Below, piece by piece: positions 3,638 to 26,166 of a stretch of DNA of 26,166 nucleotides. The stretch covers positions 1 through 26,166 of IMG/VR virus record IMGVR_UViG_3300012936_000143; one strand, given 5' to 3'. This stretch comes from a virus. Position numbers and translations under genes: made by a program. Every line of letters begins with the position of its first letter. Positions within the stretch are counted from its first letter, which is position 1. A model generated the notes under the pieces. It saw only the letters and a program-made list of their open reading frames with translations. It made no database searches and had not been told where the DNA came from.

Positions 3638-4570
3638 CTATGCAGGGGTGCGGTTTCCAAAAAGTTCACCGCATTTATTGTAGAAATGAAAGAAACTCTC
3701 ATTCTGGTTATAATTTTCACTCTGATGTGCTGTGATTGTCGCTTGCTTGTATACTTGCGACATTTGCAAATCACACACTAACTGACCAGTACCATCAAAT
3801 ATGTTGTCTATTTGACTGAAGTGGTTAGCCATTCTTGAGTGTGTCCAGTACGAACTGTTAGTCCAATAACTTGCTGTGCAAACTAGCATCAAAGCCGTTG
3901 TCTTATTTGCAGGGAAAGTTACGTTTACATTATCACCTGTATACTGCCCACCACCTGATGAAGTATTCCAAGGCGTAGACCAACTATTATTCTGTCGAGT
4001 TACGCTCGTGTAATCTTGGTGGTTTGGCTTGTATACATGTAATGCTGCACCTTCGTATCCTTGATGCCAGTAATTAGTGTAGTGAAAGTTAACATTTTTG
4101 GCTATGCTATTATTAGTCGTATTACGAACGAACATAATATTACAAACTATAGGCATATAATTCTGCGTTGCTCGACCATGCAGTGTTTGCATGTGCTTTA
4201 AGCCAACAGAACGCTTATTCGCGTAATGCGTCCTTATCCCTTTAACATTATTACCAGTGTTATAAGAGTTACCACCGCCATACCTATAGAAGCCTACTCC
4301 GCGAGGTATTCTCCAACAAGCCTCTATTTTTCGCCAATCACTTGCTTCATAGACATAAAAAGTAGAACCATAGTAAGGGTGACCAGTATTCCAATCTCTA
4401 GACTGATGAAAATAACGCTCTTGAATACCACTAAAGGAAACAACCGTATGCGCTGCTTCTACTGTCGTAGTCGCTTCATTAGGATATATTCCTGGGGATG
4501 TTTCACCACTAGATGACGCACCTCCACCGCTTTTTAATTTTTGTATTTCATTAAGTAAATAGAGGTCCAT
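3638..4570 (-). CDS. Tail adhesin-like paralogue 3 (Trp/Tyr/Asn-rich)
   Basis: The third of three tandem paralogues (310 aa). It opens with MDLYLLNEIQKLKSGGG, the N-terminal peptide shared by all three, then a Gly/Ser linker. The body is very rich in Tyr, Trp, Asn, His and Ser. A conserved central block reads FVRNTTNNS (about 152-160) and later YEGAALHVYKPN, matching the equivalent blocks in the two genes upstream. No known enzyme motif is visible. The aromatic, polar composition fits a beta-rich sugar- or receptor-binding protein. The shared N-terminal peptide may dock all three onto one virion site. Its ATG overlaps the preceding stop (position 4570 is shared), with GGAG upstream. Receptor-binding role is inferred from context and composition. 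Confidence 0.7.
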   Translation of the reverse strand: MDLYLLNEIQKLKSGGGASSSGETSPGIYPNEATTTVEAAHTVVSFSGIQERYFHQSRDWNTGHPYYGSTFYVYEASDWRKIEACWRIPRGVGFYRYGGGNSYNTGNNVKGIRTHYANKRSVGLKHMQTLHGRATQNYMPIVCNIMFVRNTTNNSIAKNVNFHYTNYWHQGYEGAALHVYKPNHQDYTSVTRQNNSWSTPWNTSSGGGQYTGDNVNVTFPANKTTALMLVCTASYWTNSSYWTHSRMANHFSQIDNIFDGTGQLVCDLQMSQVYKQATITAHQSENYNQNESFFHFYNKCGELFGNRTPA

Positions 4571-5490
4571 TAGTTATCTCCGAATGTTTCGCCAAGCGAT
4601 TTCCAGAAGGTTACAAGGTCATTATCTTGGGCGTGATTTCCATTATAGTTAGCCACACGGTTACACAGATAATGTTGTGTCGCTTTGTTATCGATCACTA
4701 GCCCTGCATTGATAGGAACATGAGTGTTGTACCAGTTATTACCTTCGTAAACCCAATAACCGTTATCGGTGTTTGTGTAATACATGAACGAATTACAGAG
4801 AACATACGCCCTTGTCTGGTAAGGTCCGACTGTTATACTTGTACTTCCAGTTGTGTACCAAGTGTTATTGGTGTAAGTCCATTTGGTAGTTCTATTTACA
4901 GACGTTACTTGCGAGTATGCCGTATTGTTGGGGGTGTATTCTATTAAACACGCTCCATCATAACTATGAGAATAGCGACAACTAAACTGGTAGTATAAGT
5001 CACAACTAATTGAACTCCCTGTTGGGTTCCGCAAGAAGACTATGTTATTACCAAAAGATGCATAGTTATCGTGGTATCTAATAACGTGCGTTAATTGGTT
5101 TATGCCACAAGTCTTATATAGCGAATGGTAGAGCCTTTGTGAGGAATTGGTGGTTCCTCTGTTTTCCATTGTTGTATTATAATACCTGTTAGCGGAACTG
5201 TTATCATGCGATTCATTTGCTGAAAAGAAAATTGCCCTTTGATCTGATGCACCGAACTGCGCTGAAGTAGAGAAATTTGAGTAGTGGTTACTACTTGACC
5301 ATTCCCCGTTATCGTAAGCGTAGCGTCCGTTAGTTGAGTATACTGAATAAAAAGGTATACGATTAGTTGAGAAATTTGTTTTATTTGAATTGTGGGGGGC
5401 AATTAAGTAACCCCCTGCGGCTCCACCGCCACCTGTATTACCGTCTTTTAGTTGAGACAGTTTATTCAGTAAAAATAAGTCCATATCCAT
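4570..5490 (-). CDS. Tail adhesin-like paralogue 2 (Tyr/Asn-rich)
   Basis: Second of the three tandem paralogues (306 aa). The N-terminus is MDMDLFLLNKLSQLKDG; an internal Met at residue 3 gives a start matching the sister proteins exactly, and either could be used (AGGAG lies upstream). A Gly-rich linker (about 18-27) precedes a Tyr/Asn/Ser-rich body. The conserved central block is FLRNPTGSS, followed by YDGACLIEYTPN and SQVTSV, aligning with both neighbours, then the alternating hydrophobic RAYVLCNSFMYYTN. Overall divergence between paralogues is high outside these blocks. I infer a surface-exposed receptor or glycan contact role; the family itself is unknown to me. Confidence 0.7.
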   Translation of the reverse strand: MDMDLFLLNKLSQLKDGNTGGGGAAGGYLIAPHNSNKTNFSTNRIPFYSVYSTNGRYAYDNGEWSSSNHYSNFSTSAQFGASDQRAIFFSANESHDNSSANRYYNTTMENRGTTNSSQRLYHSLYKTCGINQLTHVIRYHDNYASFGNNIVFLRNPTGSSISCDLYYQFSCRYSHSYDGACLIEYTPNNTAYSQVTSVNRTTKWTYTNNTWYTTGSTSITVGPYQTRAYVLCNSFMYYTNTDNGYWVYEGNNWYNTHVPINAGLVIDNKATQHYLCNRVANYNGNHAQDNDLVTFWKSLGETFGDN

Positions 5491-5505
5491 TTTACTGTCT
5501 CCTTT

Positions 5506-6402
5506 TTATGGTGTTTCTGGGTAATTGTAGGCGCACATACGATACAAATTACGAACTCTATTGCTGTGGCTATAACTAAAATCCCCACTACTGGCATCCC
5601 AATTTGCATCACGGGCTAGTAAGGAAGTTTTGTACATATCATAATCAGGCCGCCACCCTGCGTTATAAAGGTCATGTATATTATAAAATGTAGACAAATC
5701 TTGCCACCCTGCAACATTACTACTGTCTTGGTAGTAATACAGTGAGTGCATCATCAAACAGACTACAGTTTTACCTGCTTCAATGCTGCCTCTACTGACA
5801 CTTCCACTCCAATCGGTGCTAGTACCAGTATAATTATTGTTACTCCAATCCAAATCGGTTACTTGCGATTTGTCTGCATAATTAGGCTCACCAATCGATA
5901 TGGATGCACCATCATGCCCTGACTGCCAGTTTGAACTCATTTTTCCATAAAGGTTCATAGTCAGATCGCCATTAGTAGTGTTTTTTAACCACATGATAGT
6001 CGTGCGGAAAGGGGGATAACTTTGACCATTCCAGCGTGTGTTATACATGCTAAATGGGCCACCATGTCTGCCCCCATTAATAAAGAGTAAATGAGGTGGA
6101 CCACCGTTATCGTAAGCCGATCTCTGGTTGGTTTCCGTATAGGGTTTACCTATCGCATTAAAAACACCATATTCATAATCGCTACGACCAGCACCGCCAT
6201 ATGTATAGAACGAGGTGTATGGGCTACTAGAACTCCAAGTCCAGTTATCCGTTTGCTGACGATCATTTACGCGAGTGATAATAGGCCAAACAGTCTCATT
6301 GCCACTAGCATCATTAGGGAGAAACATACTCCCTGCTTCAGAGGTTGACCCTGCGCCACCTGCCTCTAATTTGTTTAATTCGTTAAGGAGATATAAGTCC
6401 AT
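5506..6402 (-). CDS. Tail adhesin-like paralogue 1 (Trp/Tyr/Asn-rich)
   Basis: First of the three tandem paralogues to be translated (298 aa). It begins MDLYLLNELNKLEAGGAG, sharing the 12-residue N-terminal peptide, with AGGAG ahead of the start. The body has the same layout as its neighbours: an aromatic/Asn-rich region, a central block LKNTTNGDLTMNLYGK, then HDGASISIGEPN and SQVTDL, then the hydrophobic strand VVCLMMHSLYYY. It ends without the FG-containing tail the other two share. The gene is separated from paralogue 2 by 15 bases. Tandem divergence of an exposed protein is typical of host-range determinants, so a role in adsorption is likely but unproven. Confidence 0.7.
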   Translation of the reverse strand: MDLYLLNELNKLEAGGAGSTSEAGSMFLPNDASGNETVWPIITRVNDRQQTDNWTWSSSSPYTSFYTYGGAGRSDYEYGVFNAIGKPYTETNQRSAYDNGGPPHLLFINGGRHGGPFSMYNTRWNGQSYPPFRTTIMWLKNTTNGDLTMNLYGKMSSNWQSGHDGASISIGEPNYADKSQVTDLDWSNNNYTGTSTDWSGSVSRGSIEAGKTVVCLMMHSLYYYQDSSNVAGWQDLSTFYNIHDLYNAGWRPDYDMYKTSLLARDANWDASSGDFSYSHSNRVRNLYRMCAYNYPETP

Positions 6403-6420: not shown

Positions 6421-7419
6421 CTATGGTACTATTTCGATTGCTTCAATAAGACCATCTGAGTCAGTAAGAACATTATAGACTTTCGTTACTGGAACTCCCC
6501 CGATTTGAATTGTTTCTCTGAAGCCTTCTAGATACCCGTCTGAGTCATAGGTAATGTTCCAGACAAGTTTGCCGTGAGAGTTAATCGAAGTAAGCCGCCC
6601 ATCTGAGTCATGTGAAATGTTAGATGAAGAGATTGCGCCAGTGAACAAAGTATCATCAATTTGAGCCTTTGTGTATGATGCGTTATCCTGAGTATATGTA
6701 CCTAAGTTAGCCTCTAGGTCAGAAAATTTAGTATCAAACTGACCAGCGTACTCAACTTGCTCTTTAGCAATCTGTGACGCGAAGGTTGTACCATCAGTAC
6801 GCATACTTTCTATCGCTGCGTTGATTGCCGCAATTACAGTAGCATTCAGGTAAGTCTCAATACCGTCAATAAATGTATTAACATCACCAACAACAACATC
6901 TGCAAAGTTATCGTTAATGTGTGTTTTAAAGTCGGCTGCGATACTGTTTAGTTTTGTTGGAATTTCTCGCGCTAATGTATTCGTAAAAATACTTGTGTTT
7001 GCGCTGAAGTCTGTGACTGAAATATCTGCTACTGTGGTGTGATCTGCAATTTGAGCAATTGTTACACCTGAAACATGAATCGCTGCACCAGCCGCACCAG
7101 CGCCAGCCATTTCTGAGTGTAAGGTACAGTAGTAGTACAGTGTATCGGGCGCATCATCAGCGACTACGATAGAAACTGAAGCTCCCGACTGCCCATGGGT
7201 TCCTGTAGTGGTTACCCCCGTGGTATATTCGGTGCTACCTGCAGCATCGGCTGCGCTTGCAAAGGCAAGTACATGCCCTGAATTTGTAGAATCACTTACG
7301 TTGAAATTGTAAGTATTTCCTCTTACTAAAAACAGGTTAGGGTGTTTGGCACCGTCAATTTGCCAACGGTTTCCTTCGGTATACGCCCCAACCGTCACGT
7401 TCATATTTACGGTTGCCAT
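6421..7419 (-). CDS. Tail/virion protein with N-terminal cupredoxin-like domain
   Basis: Residues 5-118 look like a cupredoxin (beta-barrel blue-copper fold). YNFNVSDSTNSGHVLAF contains His49, and LYYYCTLHSEMAG contains Cys98, His101 and Met104. The Cys-x2-His-x2-Met spacing matches amicyanin, so all four type-1 copper ligands are present by position. I recall similar domains in marine phage structural proteins. Residues 120-260 are helical and Ala/Thr-rich. The C-terminus has three DSDG-containing turns (SDGRLTSI, SDGYLEGF, SDGLIEAI), a repeat typical of fibre-like beta structures. Gene position between a small protein and the three adhesin paralogues supports a tail-tip or fibre role. Copper binding is a prediction from residues only; the fold could be purely structural. 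Confidence 0.72.
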   Translation of the reverse strand: MATVNMNVTVGAYTEGNRWQIDGAKHPNLFLVRGNTYNFNVSDSTNSGHVLAFASAADAAGSTEYTTGVTTTGTHGQSGASVSIVVADDAPDTLYYYCTLHSEMAGAGAAGAAIHVSGVTIAQIADHTTVADISVTDFSANTSIFTNTLAREIPTKLNSIAADFKTHINDNFADVVVGDVNTFIDGIETYLNATVIAAINAAIESMRTDGTTFASQIAKEQVEYAGQFDTKFSDLEANLGTYTQDNASYTKAQIDDTLFTGAISSSNISHDSDGRLTSINSHGKLVWNITYDSDGYLEGFRETIQIGGVPVTKVYNVLTDSDGLIEAIEIVP

Positions 7420-15213: not shown

Positions 15214-15900
15214 TTAGCACTTTCTCCATGTGTGTATAGGCGGCAATCCTATTTCCCAATCATTAGCGTTTTTCAAAATGCACATTATGTCTGTCGCTAT
15301 TGAGTAGCGTGGACTAGAGCTTTGACTTATCCCTGTCCTGTGGGCAGTCTTAGAGGGGAAAATTAGAATTAAATCGTCTTCTACTTTTATAGGAAGCTCT
15401 GCAGAACTCAGTTGAGAACCACTTTTAACCACACCCTTTTTATATTGCTCTTCTCTAAATAGCCCCGTTATAATTTCATTTTGGTGGTTGTCTGTTGCTA
15501 CATAAAAGTCACCAGATTGTTCTGGAACAGATGGGTAGTAGACAACGCTTATGTGAGATTGCTCGTGCCTATGGTGGGCAATCATTTTATCTTGGACTTG
15601 TTTGGTGGCCCAAGAACGTGTGTAGTAATAGTCGAATAAGTGTTCATTGATTTGGAGTCCTGAGATATACTCTCTGACTTGCTCACCAATGATGCCAAAT
15701 AAACGTAAATAAGTAGGATGATTGTGAAGCTCATGGAAACCATGCACATCACCTGTCCAAGTACTTTCGCTATTACTTCTATCGACTTTTGTAAAAGATT
15801 CATCAATCTGATCTATAATTAATTGACGCTCTTCTACTGTTAAACCTGCCTTTGCCGCATATACGGAAACTGGCAAATAATTAAAAAACCGCCCCTTCAT
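15214..15900 (-). CDS. Putative 2OG-Fe(II) oxygenase
   Basis: A 228-aa protein with the signature of phage/marine 2-oxoglutarate and Fe(II)-dependent oxygenases. SWATK (Trp97) precedes HHRHEQSHISVVYYP, with an HxH pair (His110, His112), then GDFYV. The distal block LILIFPSKTAHRTG has His187, followed by PRYSIATDI with Arg198 to bind 2-oxoglutarate. The family couples decarboxylation of 2-oxoglutarate to hydroxylation of a substrate, unknown here. Placement inside the head operon, overlapping the 72-aa gene by 4 bases, suggests a capsid-linked or late-infection target, perhaps modification of a virion protein. It shares no visible similarity with the second oxygenase at 22002-22676 beyond the general fold. 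Confidence 0.75.
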   Translation of the reverse strand: MKGRFFNYLPVSVYAAKAGLTVEERQLIIDQIDESFTKVDRSNSESTWTGDVHGFHELHNHPTYLRLFGIIGEQVREYISGLQINEHLFDYYYTRSWATKQVQDKMIAHHRHEQSHISVVYYPSVPEQSGDFYVATDNHQNEIITGLFREEQYKKGVVKSGSQLSSAELPIKVEDDLILIFPSKTAHRTGISQSSSPRYSIATDIMCILKNANDWEIGLPPIHTWRKC

Positions 15901-16117: not shown

Positions 16118-18223
16118 TTATCCTTGTGGTGGTTGTACAGGTGGACCTGCCTGTGGTTCAGGCTGTCCCCCATTATTTCCCCCACCCGTTCCAGTGAAAC
16201 CCTGTTCATCTGGCGTTGGTGCCGTTCCCCCTTGTGGCGGTCCCATTGGACCTTGTGCTTGTTGTGGCTGTTGTGGAGCATTAGGGTCTTCGCCCATCAT
16301 TTTCTGCATTTCAGCCATCATTTTTGCTTGTAGCTGCGCTTCCCTAGCATCATTCAAGATTAGGTCTTCATCTAAGTCCATAGATGCAGCTAATTCTCTT
16401 AGGATGTAGTCGTAGCGTACAAATGGTGCCATCATCTGATTAGATGAAAGCTGCATAAACTGTAGTAATCTCTGGGAACGTATTTCATTACGCATCAAAG
16501 ACTCTGTACCTTTAGAAACAACTTCTAAATCGCCTAGCAAATCCTTAGAAAAACGAAACTGCATATTAAAGGCGAACATGGAACGTCCTAGAGGTCCCAA
16601 TAGGTAATCATCGATATTTTTTACGACACTTTTGATATTTTGCGCTGCAGCCCCTAATAACATGGACATGCCTGACGCTGTGCGTCCTGTACTCATAATG
16701 CCCGTAGAGCCGTGAGCATATGAGGGCATGCCCGTACTTTCATCAGCCAATTGACGGGCCTTATCGAACATCATTATTAACTCATTGGAAACATTGGGGA
16801 ATTTGGTGCCAAAGATGCTCTGGCCTGGGCTACCCTGCTGTCTCCTAAACACTCGGCCTGGGTATATATCCATTGATTGGCCTGGGACTAAATTAGTTTC
16901 ATCTACTTCTATTAATAGGTTACCAGACAGTGCAGCATTATCTACGCTCATACGCATAAAGCCATTCATCAGCATTTGAGTGTCTGCCATATTTTCTGCG
17001 ATACCTACCCCAAAGAAGCTATAAGGATTAGATTCATAAGGTGCCGCATGGTATGGAATACGGGCTGGAACAAATGGGTTTATAACAAGTCTAAGTGTCT
17101 GTCCGTTGCATACCCAAGCATTAACTTGGACTTGATCTTGGTCAGAAAACTCTGAAGGAAATTCGATGCCAGCTTGTTCAGCTATTTCAGAATCCATCAT
17201 ACCCCAGAACTCTAAAATTTCAAAGCGTTCTGTAGGACCTGCATTACTTACATTAACATTATCTTCTAGTACTGTTTCCCAATACTCAGGTGTATAATTA
17301 GGACCTAAAGCAATTGCTTCCTCAACGCTTTCTTCTCTAAACATTGGGCGGTTCTTAAGACCACGCAACTGTGTTCTACTCATACGATGCCGCTGGATAA
17401 TATATTCAGCTTCTGACATTGAGCGAGACTCTGGGTCAGGATAGAAGTCCCAAACGCTACAGTGTTCGATCTTAGCTATGGTTTCAAATACTGGCTCGTA
17501 CTCTCCATCCTCATTCCATTTGGGATATTCTTTGTCCTGTGCAAAAGGCCCCTTACAAACGCCTGTACCAAACAATGCCATTTCGAAAGCAATGGACCGT
17601 AGGTGTTTAGATGCCTCTGACTCTTCTAGCTGGTCATGGATTAACTTTTCCATTTTCTTTGCAGCTAGTTTTGTTGGCTCCCATACAAGAGCGCCTAACT
17701 GTCCAGACGCACCCTCGTTAAGTTCATCCTCTACCTCTTCTAATAAATCTGCATACGGACCAGTTTTTACAAGCTCTACCCGTTTGGCGGTTGAAGTAGA
17801 CTTTTTATCTTCTGGCTCTTCCTGTGTTTTAACGTGTACTGCATCAGCGGCACCAGATGATATTTGGGTTGGCTGTATGCCTATAGGGAACTTACCACCA
17901 GCAAACAAAATATCCGAAATCTGAGCGAATGCAGCAAGAACTTTTGTTTTGGTTATCTTTATAAATGCTCTGGACTTTTCTTTATCCGTAAATGCAACAT
18001 CAGGCCCGTATATTCCACGATAGTTTCTGTAGTTAAGAAGCCAACGCTCTTCATCCTCGTGTCGAGCATCTTTAGCTCTTTTATATCTGTTTGTTACCCA
18101 TGCAACTAAATCAGATAGCTCTCTGTTTTCTTGTTGGACGTTATCACCCTCTGCAGCAAAACTCATTGGTGTAGTTGCGTCAGAATCTAGGTTTAAATCG
18201 TCTGGGGGTGAAACTAAGGCCAT
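16118..18223 (-). CDS. Portal protein
   Basis: A 701-aa protein, in the upper size range typical of podovirus-type portals. The N-terminal part (ELSDLVAWVTNRYKRAKDAR, then RWLLNYRNYRGIYG, about 35-73) and the clip/stem region with YHAAPYESNPYSFFGVGIAE (about 394-413) and MADTQMLMNGFMRMSVDNAA match portal signatures I know. The C-terminal 65 residues are low-complexity, Gln/Pro/Gly-rich, after a Met-rich helix. The dodecameric portal sits at one capsid vertex, is the docking site of the terminase motor during packaging and later joins the adaptor. The gene lies between terminase (3-base gap) and the late operon, the conventional order. Confidence 0.9.
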   Translation of the reverse strand: MALVSPPDDLNLDSDATTPMSFAAEGDNVQQENRELSDLVAWVTNRYKRAKDARHEDEERWLLNYRNYRGIYGPDVAFTDKEKSRAFIKITKTKVLAAFAQISDILFAGGKFPIGIQPTQISSGAADAVHVKTQEEPEDKKSTSTAKRVELVKTGPYADLLEEVEDELNEGASGQLGALVWEPTKLAAKKMEKLIHDQLEESEASKHLRSIAFEMALFGTGVCKGPFAQDKEYPKWNEDGEYEPVFETIAKIEHCSVWDFYPDPESRSMSEAEYIIQRHRMSRTQLRGLKNRPMFREESVEEAIALGPNYTPEYWETVLEDNVNVSNAGPTERFEILEFWGMMDSEIAEQAGIEFPSEFSDQDQVQVNAWVCNGQTLRLVINPFVPARIPYHAAPYESNPYSFFGVGIAENMADTQMLMNGFMRMSVDNAALSGNLLIEVDETNLVPGQSMDIYPGRVFRRQQGSPGQSIFGTKFPNVSNELIMMFDKARQLADESTGMPSYAHGSTGIMSTGRTASGMSMLLGAAAQNIKSVVKNIDDYLLGPLGRSMFAFNMQFRFSKDLLGDLEVVSKGTESLMRNEIRSQRLLQFMQLSSNQMMAPFVRYDYILRELAASMDLDEDLILNDAREAQLQAKMMAEMQKMMGEDPNAPQQPQQAQGPMGPPQGGTAPTPDEQGFTGTGGGNNGGQPEPQAGPPVQPPQG

Positions 18224-18226
18224 ATA

Positions 18227-20092
18227 TTAGTATCCAAAAATATTGTCGCTAGGCTGGAAACCAGCATTAAAATCTGTACCCATTTCTTCGAAGATAGATT
18301 TTGACCTTGGGCGAGACATTACGGCATACCGTACAGAGTCATAAGCATGGTCATTTTTATATCTTGGGTCTATATCGTCACTCCCTTTCGGGTCTGAAGG
18401 AATGGTTGGTAAATCAGAAATTATTTGTCTGCAGGTATTAAAAAATTGAATTCCTGATAATCCTGTTTCTTGATCTACCTTCAATAATTCGTGCAGTCGG
18501 TTCTTACCTGCTATTCTTGAGCCAGCGCTTCTGTCGGAAGGTCTCCACCGACAACCCTGTGAAATCATTTCTTCTGCTATAGACGGTCCAATCTGGCCTC
18601 TTTGGTGCCAGCATGAGCTATCAAGCATTCCGTAGGAAATTCGTTCCCCGTATTCAGCATCTAGTACGGCTTTTGCAAGGTCCCTACCTGTGTGCTTACT
18701 TAGGTATAACTCCCTATAACATATCAAAGTCTCATACGCAGGGTCAATGGCGAACCAATGGACTGCACTAAAACTAGAGTACCCATAATCACAGCTTCTG
18801 AACCTTCTCCAATCGTGGGGGATATCGAAAGGCTCTACAACGTGATCTTTTTCCCTAAACTCTGAAAATGCTGCGCCATCAGCAACATTCCAATCTCCTT
18901 CAAGCAACTGTCTACGTTGCATTTCAGGTAGGGAAAGAAGGTTAGCCTCATATTGTCCATCTGCAGTAAGATAAGGATTATCTTTTAGTGATGCTGGTAT
19001 GAAGCGTCTATAAAAAAGAGGTTCCCCTGCTTTTGAATGACCTTCTGGGTAAACTAGTATGTCTCCTGTTTCTATATCAGTAGCTGCAAACTTCTGATTA
19101 GCTGGTGCAGGTTCAATAAATAACTTTCGAACCCATTGATGGCCTGGCCCCCCAGGATTAGTAGTAGCGCGGATAAAGATTGGTAACGAAGGATCAGTTG
19201 TTCTCAATCTTGAGCGCATATAATTGTACGCAAATGGAGTAGGATGCTGTGTTAATTCATCGAACCCCACATAACTAAAAGCCTGTCCCTGATATCGCAA
19301 AACATCTTGATCTCTTTCAAGATAAGTTAGCCATAATCTTGCACCAGAGGGGAATATCCATTGGCTTTTTCTTTCTTGCCATTTAGCCCCTTTAAATGCT
19401 TTGGGATATAGCTCTTGCGTCTTCCATACAATCTCTCTTAATTCATCAGTTGTTCTTCGAAGAATTAACCCGTTGAAGTTTGGGTTTGAGAAGTATCGCA
19501 TAGGGTCTGCGATTAGAGCTAGAGTCTTACCACCACCAGCCGCGCCCCCATATAGAACCTCTCGTTCACTTGCTGCTAAGAAATCTGTTTGGGGTCCTTG
19601 GTTAGGTCTGAATAAGACCTCTTCTTCTGTTTTAACAGGTGTAACAGAGAAGTCAAGCGTATCTGAAAAACTACTTTCTGTTTCTTCACTTTCCTGTTTT
19701 ATTTTCTTTTCGGCAATTGTTAAGCGTCTTCGCGCCTGTGCTAGGTTTTGCCGTAAAGCCTGTTCCTTTTTTGCCTCTTTGGTTTTAGGTTTTCGTTTTC
19801 GGTTCTGCTTATCTAATGTTTTAATTCTCTGCGTCTTTTCAGAACCCTGCCTATGTTCTTTCCAAATTTTAGATAGCCCTTGGTGGGAAATTTTTCTTCC
19901 CACTTCCCTCGTGAGCCACTCTGCCGTTTGACGTAACGAGTGACCTTCATCCAGATATTCAAATGATTGTTCAATATAAGGAGTTACACTATCATCTGGT
20001 ACGAGAACTAAAGGATCGTCCTCACTTGGCTTATAACCATACGCAACTCTAGCTGTAGCGTTGGGTCTAGCCTTATTCTTCCATTTCGTCAT
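18227..20092 (-). CDS. terL: Terminase large subunit with N-terminal recombinase-like extension
   Basis: A 621-aa packaging motor. The ATPase part has Walker A GAAGGGKT (183-190), Walker B SYVGFDEL with Asp278-Glu279, and the coupling motif TTNPGG (310-315). The nuclease domain has Asp435 (SCDYG), Asp491 (MLDSS) and Asp581/Asp585 (DHAYDS). It cuts concatemeric DNA and pumps it through the portal. Residues 17-81 (VAYGYKP..., LVLVPDDSV, FEYLDEGHSLRQTAEWL) resemble the Recombinase domain of large serine recombinases, a DNA-binding helical domain. A Lys/Arg-rich helical linker (88-135) follows. So the N-terminus may add DNA recognition, part of which TerS usually gives. The start overlaps TerS by 20 nt. 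Confidence 0.93.
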   Translation of the reverse strand: MTKWKNKARPNATARVAYGYKPSEDDPLVLVPDDSVTPYIEQSFEYLDEGHSLRQTAEWLTREVGRKISHQGLSKIWKEHRQGSEKTQRIKTLDKQNRKRKPKTKEAKKEQALRQNLAQARRRLTIAEKKIKQESEETESSFSDTLDFSVTPVKTEEEVLFRPNQGPQTDFLAASEREVLYGGAAGGGKTLALIADPMRYFSNPNFNGLILRRTTDELREIVWKTQELYPKAFKGAKWQERKSQWIFPSGARLWLTYLERDQDVLRYQGQAFSYVGFDELTQHPTPFAYNYMRSRLRTTDPSLPIFIRATTNPGGPGHQWVRKLFIEPAPANQKFAATDIETGDILVYPEGHSKAGEPLFYRRFIPASLKDNPYLTADGQYEANLLSLPEMQRRQLLEGDWNVADGAAFSEFREKDHVVEPFDIPHDWRRFRSCDYGYSSFSAVHWFAIDPAYETLICYRELYLSKHTGRDLAKAVLDAEYGERISYGMLDSSCWHQRGQIGPSIAEEMISQGCRWRPSDRSAGSRIAGKNRLHELLKVDQETGLSGIQFFNTCRQIISDLPTIPSDPKGSDDIDPRYKNDHAYDSVRYAVMSRPRSKSIFEEMGTDFNAGFQPSDNIFGY

Positions 20093-20459
20093 TGGACACC
20101 TTTTTAGGCGGCATTATAAAAATACCACCTTCTGGACCCTTGACTTCAATCTGTTCTTTCTTGACCAGCCCTGTCCGATCAAGCACCTCTTTTGCTGCAG
20201 CTACGGCATTTCTAGCTCCCATCGATGATGGGTCTTCTAGTACACCTATAACTCCGAATGCAGCTTTGGGCGCATTCATAGCTAACAGCATCTGACTACG
20301 CTCAATAATTTCATCTTTAAGAGGATCAACTACTTCGCTGGTACGAGTATTATCAGAATACCCAGCTTGGCGCATTGCCTCACGCACATTACCTCTAGCA
20401 TTACCCACTAAGGCATCAAGAAACGATAGCTGTTTCTCAGTGTATGTCTTTGCTTCCAT
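20073..20459 (-). CDS. terS: Terminase small subunit (probable)
   Basis: A 128-aa protein from ATG 20459. The start is chosen because GAGG lies seven bases upstream; the longer frame to 20513 would add residues encoded within the preceding gene. It starts MEAKTYTEKQLSFLDALVGN and has a helix-turn-helix-like stretch (EAMRQAGYSDNTRTSEVV). It then has a helical oligomerisation region and ends EVLDRTGLVKKEQIEVKGPEGGIFIMPPK, a tail I know from phage terminase small subunits. It recognises the packaging site and stimulates TerL. It is translationally coupled to TerL (20-nt overlap). Because TerL has its own candidate DNA-binding domain, the division of recognition between them is open. Confidence 0.75.
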   Translation of the reverse strand: MEAKTYTEKQLSFLDALVGNARGNVREAMRQAGYSDNTRTSEVVDPLKDEIIERSQMLLAMNAPKAAFGVIGVLEDPSSMGARNAVAAAKEVLDRTGLVKKEQIEVKGPEGGIFIMPPKKVSNDEMEE

Positions 20460-22001: not shown

Positions 22002-22676
22002 TTAGTCTCTTGCGGTAAGCCTCGCTACAGTTCTATTTAAGAACCATACTACGAGTTTTGAATGCCAAGACTTCATCTTTCTCTCAACATCCAGAAATAA
22101 AATAATGCGCGGATAAAGGGTGTTATTCTGAACGTAGTGTTCGTAGGTATCATCGAATGCTAGTACCTGCCCATCATTCCAAAAATAACTCTGCCCATCG
22201 ACCATTAAGAAGCAGTCTTTTCTGTTGGGTGTTTTTAATCCTATATGGACTCTTACACTCCCTTTCCAAGGTCCTTCATGGGCCTCTATCCGCGCTTGCG
22301 GTTCCAAACACGAAACCATAGCTAATCTAATGTCTTTATGGCGTTTCAAGATTTTTAATGTCTTAGGACACTGAACACGGGCGTTTGGTGTTGGCCTTGA
22401 ATACCACTTTAAAATAAACTTATGCCACTTACCGTCATTGGTAACATCTTCGTCAAAAAACATATCACCCTGAATAGGGGTAGCATAATTTGCAGCCTGT
22501 AGAAGTTCTTGCTGCACTTCTTCAAAATTATCTAACAGGTCTTTTATTGACTTCCTTTCAGTCATTGCCTCTGTCAGATCAGCTTGCACAGGATCAAACG
22601 AATGACGGGCCACATAAGTATTAACCTTATCTAGCCACCTGTATAAAATCTCTGTGCTAAAAATTCTTGATAACAT
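22002..22676 (-). CDS. Aspartyl/asparaginyl beta-hydroxylase-like oxygenase
   Basis: A 224-aa protein. Its last 100 residues align by eye with AspH. CLEPQARIEAHEGP matches the PHTGP block (His133 as iron ligand) and VRVHIGLKTP the RMHLGL block (Arg142, His144). AFDDTYEHYVQN contains His180, the second ligand, and YPRIILFLDV has Arg190, which binds 2-oxoglutarate. The carboxylate ligand used by most 2OG enzymes is absent, as in AspH. The family hydroxylates Asp/Asn in EGF-like domains in eukaryotes and acts on lipids in some bacteria (LpxO type). The substrate here is unknown. It follows a small exported Cys-containing protein without a gap, so that protein is a candidate partner. Residues 1-70 are helical. 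Confidence 0.82.
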   Translation of the reverse strand: MLSRIFSTEILYRWLDKVNTYVARHSFDPVQADLTEAMTERKSIKDLLDNFEEVQQELLQAANYATPIQGDMFFDEDVTNDGKWHKFILKWYSRPTPNARVQCPKTLKILKRHKDIRLAMVSCLEPQARIEAHEGPWKGSVRVHIGLKTPNRKDCFLMVDGQSYFWNDGQVLAFDDTYEHYVQNNTLYPRIILFLDVERKMKSWHSKLVVWFLNRTVARLTARD

Positions 22677-24295: not shown

Positions 24296-24400
24296 CACTT
24301 AGGGGTTACTTTATAACCCTTACTTAATGGATTACGCGGATGGACCTAGTTTACAATAGCCCCGAAGGTGTATTTTAAAGTTATCTACGAAGTTTACATT

Positions 24401-24550
24401 TTAAATCAACGCGGATCGATTATTCTCCATAGTGCAACCTAATGGTTTACAGCCCATTTTTCCTAATTTTGTGCAGAGCTTGTATACGATACCGCCACCC
24501 ACCCCCCATGGCGCTTGGCCCCCCTCGCATTTTTTAAGATAGCAAGTAAG
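24401..24550 (-). pseudogene. Open frame of 49 codons without an ATG (possible remnant)
   Basis: A minus-strand frame runs from just after a stop (TAG at 24553-24551) to TAA at 24403-24401. It encodes a Cys/Gly-rich sequence that includes KKCEGGQAPWGVGGGIVYK and GKMGCKPLGCTMENNR. It has five Cys and reads like protein, but lacks an upstream ATG. Internal ATGs exist at 24457 and 24430, and a GTG at 24502. No ribosome site is clear. It may be the end of a broken gene or a chance frame in G-rich DNA. Confidence 0.2.
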
Positions 24551-24792
24551 CTATTGTTTTTTAACGCTTTTCTTCTGTAAACTTATAATATAATAAGAAA
24601 AGAAAGAGCTAAAATAAAACCAAAGAGAAATTAAGAAAAGAAATTGTAATAATATCAAGAATTTATAGCTTTGGGGCTTATACTTTTTTGTTATCAGGCT
24701 AGGAAAATTGCTCCAGATTTTTAACTTGACGAAAATTAATTGGCTGGTGGTGCCTCTTTCGCGTGTACGTTTTAAGCCTCTTATAATCTAGT

Positions 24793-24889
24793 AATAGCTG
24801 CAGGGGCTATTCTAAAGCCCGTACAAGGGGGTTATTACTCTTTAGCAAGTTACCCTAGCTTAACCCCGTAAAGCTTCCCTACGGGCTTT
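24793..24889. ncRNA. Nested-stem element, possible structured RNA or cis-site
   Basis: Perfect outer stem AAAGCCCGTA (24814-24823) with TACGGGCTTT (24880-24889); inner stem GGGGTTA (24828-24834) with TAACCCC (24861-24867); a flanking hairpin AATAGC/GCTATT (24793-24798 with 24806-24811). Alternative pairings exist: GGGCT/AGCCC (24804-24808 with 24816-24820) and CCCGTA/TACGGG (24865-24870 with 24880-24885), the last followed on the plus strand by CTTTTAATTA, like a weak terminator. A plus-strand TATAAT sits at 24782-24787. It may be a small RNA, an attenuator-like switch or a DNA site. Confidence 0.35.
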
Positions 24890-24935
24890 TAATTAGCTTT
24901 TGGCGCTCCAAGACTCTTGCAATGTTTCAGGGCAA

Positions 24936-24960
24936 TAAAAAAGCCCCCAAAAAGGGGGCT
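24936..24960 (-). terminator. Intrinsic terminator of the three-gene cassette
   Basis: Minus strand AGCCCCC, loop TTTTT, GGGGGCT, then a T6 run and ATTGCCCTG. Strong stem and T-run make this a confident terminator after the gene ending at 24997. Stem, T-run and downstream ATTGCCCTG are nearly identical to the terminator at 26134-26159. Confidence 0.85.
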
Positions 24961-24996
24961 AATCATTATCATATTATAAGCTGGTTATTAGTCTAA

Positions 24997-26099: not shown

Positions 26100-26133
26100 T
26101 TCTTATCATATTACAAGGCTTATTAGCAGGGCA

Positions 26134-26159
26134 TAAAAAAAGCCCCCATTTAGGGGGCT
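26134..26159 (-). terminator. Intrinsic terminator of a gene beyond the window
   Basis: Minus strand AGCCCCC (26159-26153), loop TAAAT, GGGGGCT (26147-26141), then T7 and ATGCCCTG. It ends transcription coming from higher coordinates outside the window. It is a near copy of the terminator at 24936-24960. Confidence 0.82.
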
Positions 26160-26166
26160 AATCTTA

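Follow-up and report, generated by a model that had tools for sequence, protein, structure and literature searches.

The terminase large subunit (TerL) gene of a marine phage, at 18227-20092 of the window (the whole stretch of 26,166 nucleotides that was analysed) raises the question of what a region resembling the DNA-binding part of a large serine recombinase (LSR) is doing at the start of a packaging motor. An earlier note, made from the letters alone, had read the gene as TerL with such a domain at its N-terminus and a basic, helical connection between this and a standard ATPase-nuclease. The identity of the gene and the ATPase-nuclease beyond the linker were both upheld. The protein matched PF03237 (E 1.2e-10, residues 181-414) and PHROG_979 (E 1.4e-61), its Walker A motif GGAAGGGK (residues 182-189) occupied columns nearly invariant in the TerL alignment, and an AlphaFold model of the full-length protein (pLDDT 83.3) had D6E (5oe8, E 4.8e-17) as its closest solved TerL and the TerL nuclease domains of P22, SPP1 and G20c as structural matches. 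A Walker A ATPase, an RNase H-like nuclease, a small subunit gene (terS) upstream and a portal gene downstream were all found:

18227-20092, minus strand: terL, terminase large subunit (621 aa, ATG at 20092, stop included; from the ORF list)
18833-19624, minus strand: ATPase domain of TerL (about residues 157-420; PF03237 over 181-414)
18293-18820, minus strand: RNase H-like nuclease domain of TerL (about residues 425-600; PHROG_5653 over 399-598, E 6.7e-17)
20073-20459, minus strand: terS, directly upstream of terL (probable ATG at 20459, open frame from 20513)
16118-18223, minus strand: portal gene, directly downstream of terL (PF23899, E 9.3e-22)

The terS gene, which overlaps the start of terL by 20 nt, was called from PHROG_51 (E 5e-4) and from its alignment with the annotated TerS of CRP-738, CRP-1 and others. 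The portal gene further matched PHROG_332 (labelled head-tail adaptor, E 8.1e-74) and PHROG_1216 (portal). The nearest isolates were of the HMO-2011 type, namely Roseobacter phages CRP-738, CRP-212, CRP-3 and CRP-235, with 69-72% identity to the window TerL over its whole length; the rhizobial phages Sinorhizobium phiM6 and Rhizobium RHph_N3_19 reached 54%, also over the whole length.

Elsewhere in the window, three tandem paralogues of about 300 aa (3638-6402, minus strand) have a short peptide, MDLYLLNE..KL..GG, in common at their N-termini. Identity to the first copy is 26-29%, and the three may be proteins of the tail tip or of a fibre. The N-terminal part of the product of 6421-7419 (minus strand) is cupredoxin-like, with possible copper ligands in YYYCTLHSEMAG, and gave no Pfam match. 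Two further genes were found on the minus strand, one for a 2OG-Fe(II) oxygenase at 15214-15900 (PF13759, E 1.8e-13) and one for an aspartyl/asparaginyl beta-hydroxylase at 22002-22676 (PF05118, E 1.4e-40). About 700 bp at 24299-24996, flanked by two minus-strand ORFs, hold no clear gene and could contain regulatory or packaging sites; GC-rich terminator-like repeats lie at 24928-24964 and 26127-26163.

The N-terminal region of TerL was modelled with AlphaFold on residues 1-150, using 46 sequences (pLDDT 88.5). The prediction consists of a beta-hairpin (strands 20-22 and 29-32) and then three helices (37-48, 53-64 and 70-80) of helix-turn-helix (HTH) type, after which a helical linker and a hinge lead into the ATPase:

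19847-20053, minus strand: N-domain, a relative of the Recombinase domain (PF07508), residues 14-82, from AlphaFold, profile-profile comparison and Foldseek/VIA
19853-19885, minus strand: putative recognition helix HQGLSKIWKEH, residues 70-80
19679-19831, minus strand: basic helical linker, residues 88-138 (helix 88-100 and helix 105-138, the second extending to 143 in the model of residues 1-150)
19625-19678, minus strand: low-confidence hinge, residues 139-156 (pLDDT <50 at 138-156)

The pattern AYGY...VPDD...FEYLDEGHSLRQTAEWL...ISHQGLSKIW, from which the recombinase-like domain had been proposed, is present in the window TerL, and the proposed boundaries of 17-81 lie near the measured 14-80/82. 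Mean identity was 0.59 in the N-domain, 0.81 in the ATPase-nuclease and 0.46 in the linker, so that the N-domain is less conserved than the ATPase-nuclease. Its dN/dS of 0.02-0.09, where dS was measurable and unsaturated, indicates purifying selection.

Taken alone, the window TerL matched PHROG_95 (integrase) at E 0.007 and PF07508 at E 0.088 (13.5 bits, residues 38-67), the latter short of the curated cut-off of 21.1 and not significant. The phiM6 homologue matched PF07508 weakly over positions 1-93 of 102 (E 0.003 per genome). In an alignment of 27 N-domain sequences (A1), PHROG_95 was matched by 20 members (best E 1.9e-5), a count that no other family came near, and PF07508 by four (best E 0.014). 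We then compared A1 by hhalign with an alignment of 24 full-length LSRs, comprising proteins from clostridial genomes, the phiC31 and A118 integrases and two A118-like proteins. This gave P 2.9e-7 (probability 93%, score 49.8) over 66 columns, with TerL residues 14-80 falling on the start of the Recombinase domain and the alignment ending at residue 80. Scores did not exceed 17.0 in 100 column shuffles of A1 and were 16.6-16.8 for reversed profiles, and control profiles set against the N-domain reached 20.5 (sigma-70 region 4), 17.7 (HTH_23) and 11.0 (TerS); on this last score the TerS HTH was rejected as a relative. The same LSR register was recovered separately with the marine fused (35.9), split HMO-2011/CRP-1 (33.5) and rhizobial (36.3) subsets, and the N-termini of CHOED-like TerLs, used alone, aligned with the LSRs in the right register at P 0.0012 and with A1 at P 3e-8. 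In a search of 15,098 ORFs with the N-domain profile, the only matches beyond TerL-linked proteins were two LSRs (E 0.027 and 0.087), both in the Recombinase region. Sequence searches of the PDB with the N-domain or its profile returned chance-level matches only.

By these profile comparisons, residues 14-82 are homologous to the core of the LSR Recombinase domain, made up of hairpin and HTH. The order of elements is that of the LSRs of A118/LI, phiC31 and Bxb1, with a GY-containing hairpin first and an HTH core of three helices after it. Unlike these LSRs, the window TerL has no catalytic serine domain and no zinc ribbon and is attached to a packaging ATPase; it gave no match to a Resolvase-family Pfam entry, and the protein starts only about 14 residues before the Recombinase-like domain. 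What is shared is therefore a domain, and the protein is not a recombinase. What can be recognised of the Recombinase domain is its first two thirds, counted from the N-terminus, and the model continues past residue 80 with long helices that lie beyond the hhalign alignment. The likeness that the earlier note had claimed thus survived for the hairpin and HTH core as a family-level profile match, with all controls far below; it fell short of significance in the single-sequence search against PF07508, and the stretch past the core is touched by the weak phiM6 match but not by the hhalign alignment.

Comparison of folds, starting from the structure prediction that the earlier note had suggested, pointed in the same direction. 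When the N-domain was compared with 350,542 PDB chains by Foldseek, LSRs led the ranking (ranks 1, 3, 4, 8 and 9, including the LSR-DNA complex 4kis at rank 1, 6dnw at 3 and Bxb1 9iu8 at 9), all at E >0.6 and not significant alone. VIA aligned the serine integrase 9y66 over 90 residues at 4.1 A (Z 6.2) and Bxb1 9iub at Z 5.3, the top value being that of G20c TerS (Z 7.0, rmsd 11.9, an HTH plus a long helix); Z up to 7.0 is a range also reached by unrelated helical models and is not decisive. In the viral model library BFVD, ranks 1-5 were small TerL-associated N-domain proteins, the third (S4T784) having the length of HMO-2011 gp53, followed by an integrase at rank 6 (E 0.027) and by named serine recombinase or resolvase-type proteins at ranks 9-10. 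The structural evidence agrees with the profile evidence and would not stand alone.

Candidate DNA-contact residues were sought by comparison with LI integrase, in which Tyr207 and Asn208 of helix H make the base contacts of the Recombinase domain in the major groove (PMC3783163). The hhalign alignment with the A118/LI integrase places TerL His70-Gln71 on this pair, a mapping from a single profile alignment that could have slipped by one residue. Tyr20, Arg54, His70 and Arg81 are invariant in 46 sequences. Gln71 is replaced by Val in the split HMO-2011 type, which leaves His70 as the only constant member of the pair.

To place the N-domain among terminases, we used a tree of 64 TerL rows based on the ATPase-nuclease part and rooted on 14 TerLs without a detected N-domain. 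All 50 rows that carry the domain, from HMO-2011-type, Rhizobium and CHOED-like phages, formed one clade (100/99), in which the domain was fused to TerL in 31 rows and split from it in 19. The state changed at least three times on the tree, and one sister pair differs (L251 fused, L253 split). A locus pattern scan recovered 70 fused and 85 split cases, counts that follow the queries and are not a frequency. The statement that TerL usually lacks such a domain is qualified in two ways: the module is shared by the whole clade (50/50 rows), and the TerL of P2, gpP, and its relatives have an N-terminal HTH of their own. That HTH, of about 60 residues, is a precedent that belongs to a different family, PF06056 (Terminase_5, E 2.3e-27), which is related to HTH_23. 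In a Pfam search PF06056 had no match in the window TerL, and the P2 gpP HTH, tried as a relative of the N-domain, showed no detectable relation (P 0.24).

The fused TerLs of CRP-738, CRP-3, CRP-212, CRP-235, phiM6 and RHph_N3_19, all annotated simply as terminase large subunit, have the same architecture as the window protein and differ by sequence divergence only; CHOED-like phages carry a divergent fused N-domain. A separate small ORF for the module lies in the terS-terL interval of HMO-2011 and of CRP-1, -2, -9, -13, -207, -345 and -603. HMO-2011 gp53, CRP-1 gp52, CRP-2 gp62 and HTVC115P gp79 are products of such ORFs between terS and terL and match the domain with HMM E-values as low as 5e-32. 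Their ORFs overlap the terL frame by about 10-245 nt, and the four are annotated only as hypothetical proteins, as is the split N-domain of HTVC103P. In Pelagibacter phage HTVC033P, a split N-domain ORF in this interval (L007:2065-2400, HMM E 7e-18) is unannotated.

In nearly all split genomes of the HMO-2011 type, terL is read in the +1 frame relative to the module ORF, with its frame opening 116-245 nt inside that ORF, and for this reason a programmed frameshift joining the two was considered. It is disfavoured by the conserved M/V/L-S(E/D) starts and KKR-rich N-termini within the overlap, and we favour separate initiation of the two ORFs on these sequence features. Because of the conserved +1-frame starts, several annotated terL starts, those of CRP phages L005, L344, L348, L349 and L350 (e.g. 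CRP-345 and CRP-603), appear to lie too far downstream. Two TerLs with a separate N-domain (L253:3437-3560 and L351:1504-1560) start with an AT-hook-like GRPxGS (GRPQGS, GRPKGS) and then a coiled linker. Group I introns (Rfam RF00028, above the gathering score) were found in terL at L004:2019-2236 (Rhizobium phage RHph_N3_13) and L086:1567-1786; the former splits the Walker A motif, so that the annotated TerL of RHph_N3_13 is the second exon only.

A trade-off between the N-terminal extension and TerS, for which the earlier note had suggested looking, was not seen. An upstream TerS was found at 47 of 49 loci, in the fused and the split state alike. The exceptions are a short contig and CHOED, for which the ORF tried as TerS proved not to be one. 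On this count we reject a replacement of TerS by the N-domain, and since TerS is retained, the N-domain adds to it.

We consider it rather likely that residues 14-82, the basic arm and the hinge form an extra DNA-engaging module of the terminase, which probably acts when packaging is initiated or when the DNA is cut. We infer from homology and genomic context that it binds DNA, and likewise which surface it uses and at which step it acts. DNA is suggested as the target by the kinship with a DNA-binding domain, by the basic arm and by the invariant residue that occupies a base-contact position; the order terS-module-terL suggests a role in initiation or cutting. Helix 70-80, which begins with the invariant His70, would most likely lie in a groove of the DNA, close to the site where packaging starts or the cut is made; the module may help TerS to load the ATPase and may help to position the nuclease, and the hinge (139-156) would leave the motor free to translocate afterwards. 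Since related phages encode the module as a separate small protein, we expect it to function whether it is joined to TerL or supplied in trans.

HTH folds serve protein contacts too, and the module might instead be an adaptor that has kept no DNA binding and docks TerL to TerS, the portal or a host factor. Its coding sequence lies between those of TerS and TerL at every locus examined, and repeated fusion and fission of neighbouring genes, commonly read as a sign of joint action, suggests physical association. We nevertheless hold an adaptor to be unlikely, given the strongly basic linker and the invariant polar or basic residues at the ends of helices 2 and 3, of which one aligns with the position that contacts bases in LSRs. 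Less probable still is a non-specific DNA clamp that makes translocation more processive or the grip on DNA firmer, and has no part in initiation. The basic linker and flexible tether would suit it, as would the precedent of the LI integrase Recombinase domain, which reads only 3 bp directly although its contacts span 13 bp (PMC3783163), but the occurrence of the module as a separate protein in many phages fits a recruitment factor better than part of a translocating ring. That the resemblance is convergent, the region being a usual kind of TerL extension whose HTH is generic and neither derived from recombinases nor related to them, as the sub-threshold single-sequence scores, the weak fold-search E-values and the equally high VIA scores of TerS HTHs might suggest, is very improbable in view of a 66-column match that includes the GY hairpin ahead of the HTH, scores of 11-20 for generic HTH profiles and shuffles against 49.8, and the same register given independently by the CHOED-like N-termini (P 0.0012).

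We found no earlier description of the N-domain in the open-access papers that were searched. HMO-2011-type phages are described as dominant and widely distributed in the sea (PMC9038755). Tentatively, and with somewhat more doubt than belief, we suggest that the recombinase-related module is a third terminase component of this large and abundant marine phage group, one that would recognise a packaging site alongside TerS and has alternated between a separate, overlapping gene and a fusion to the motor. Through its link to the DNA-binding core of serine recombinases and its repeated fusion to the motor, the small gene between terS and terL of HMO-2011-type phages, so far hypothetical or overlooked, becomes a testable packaging factor, and the fused and split systems offer a natural pair for asking how terminases find and cut DNA.
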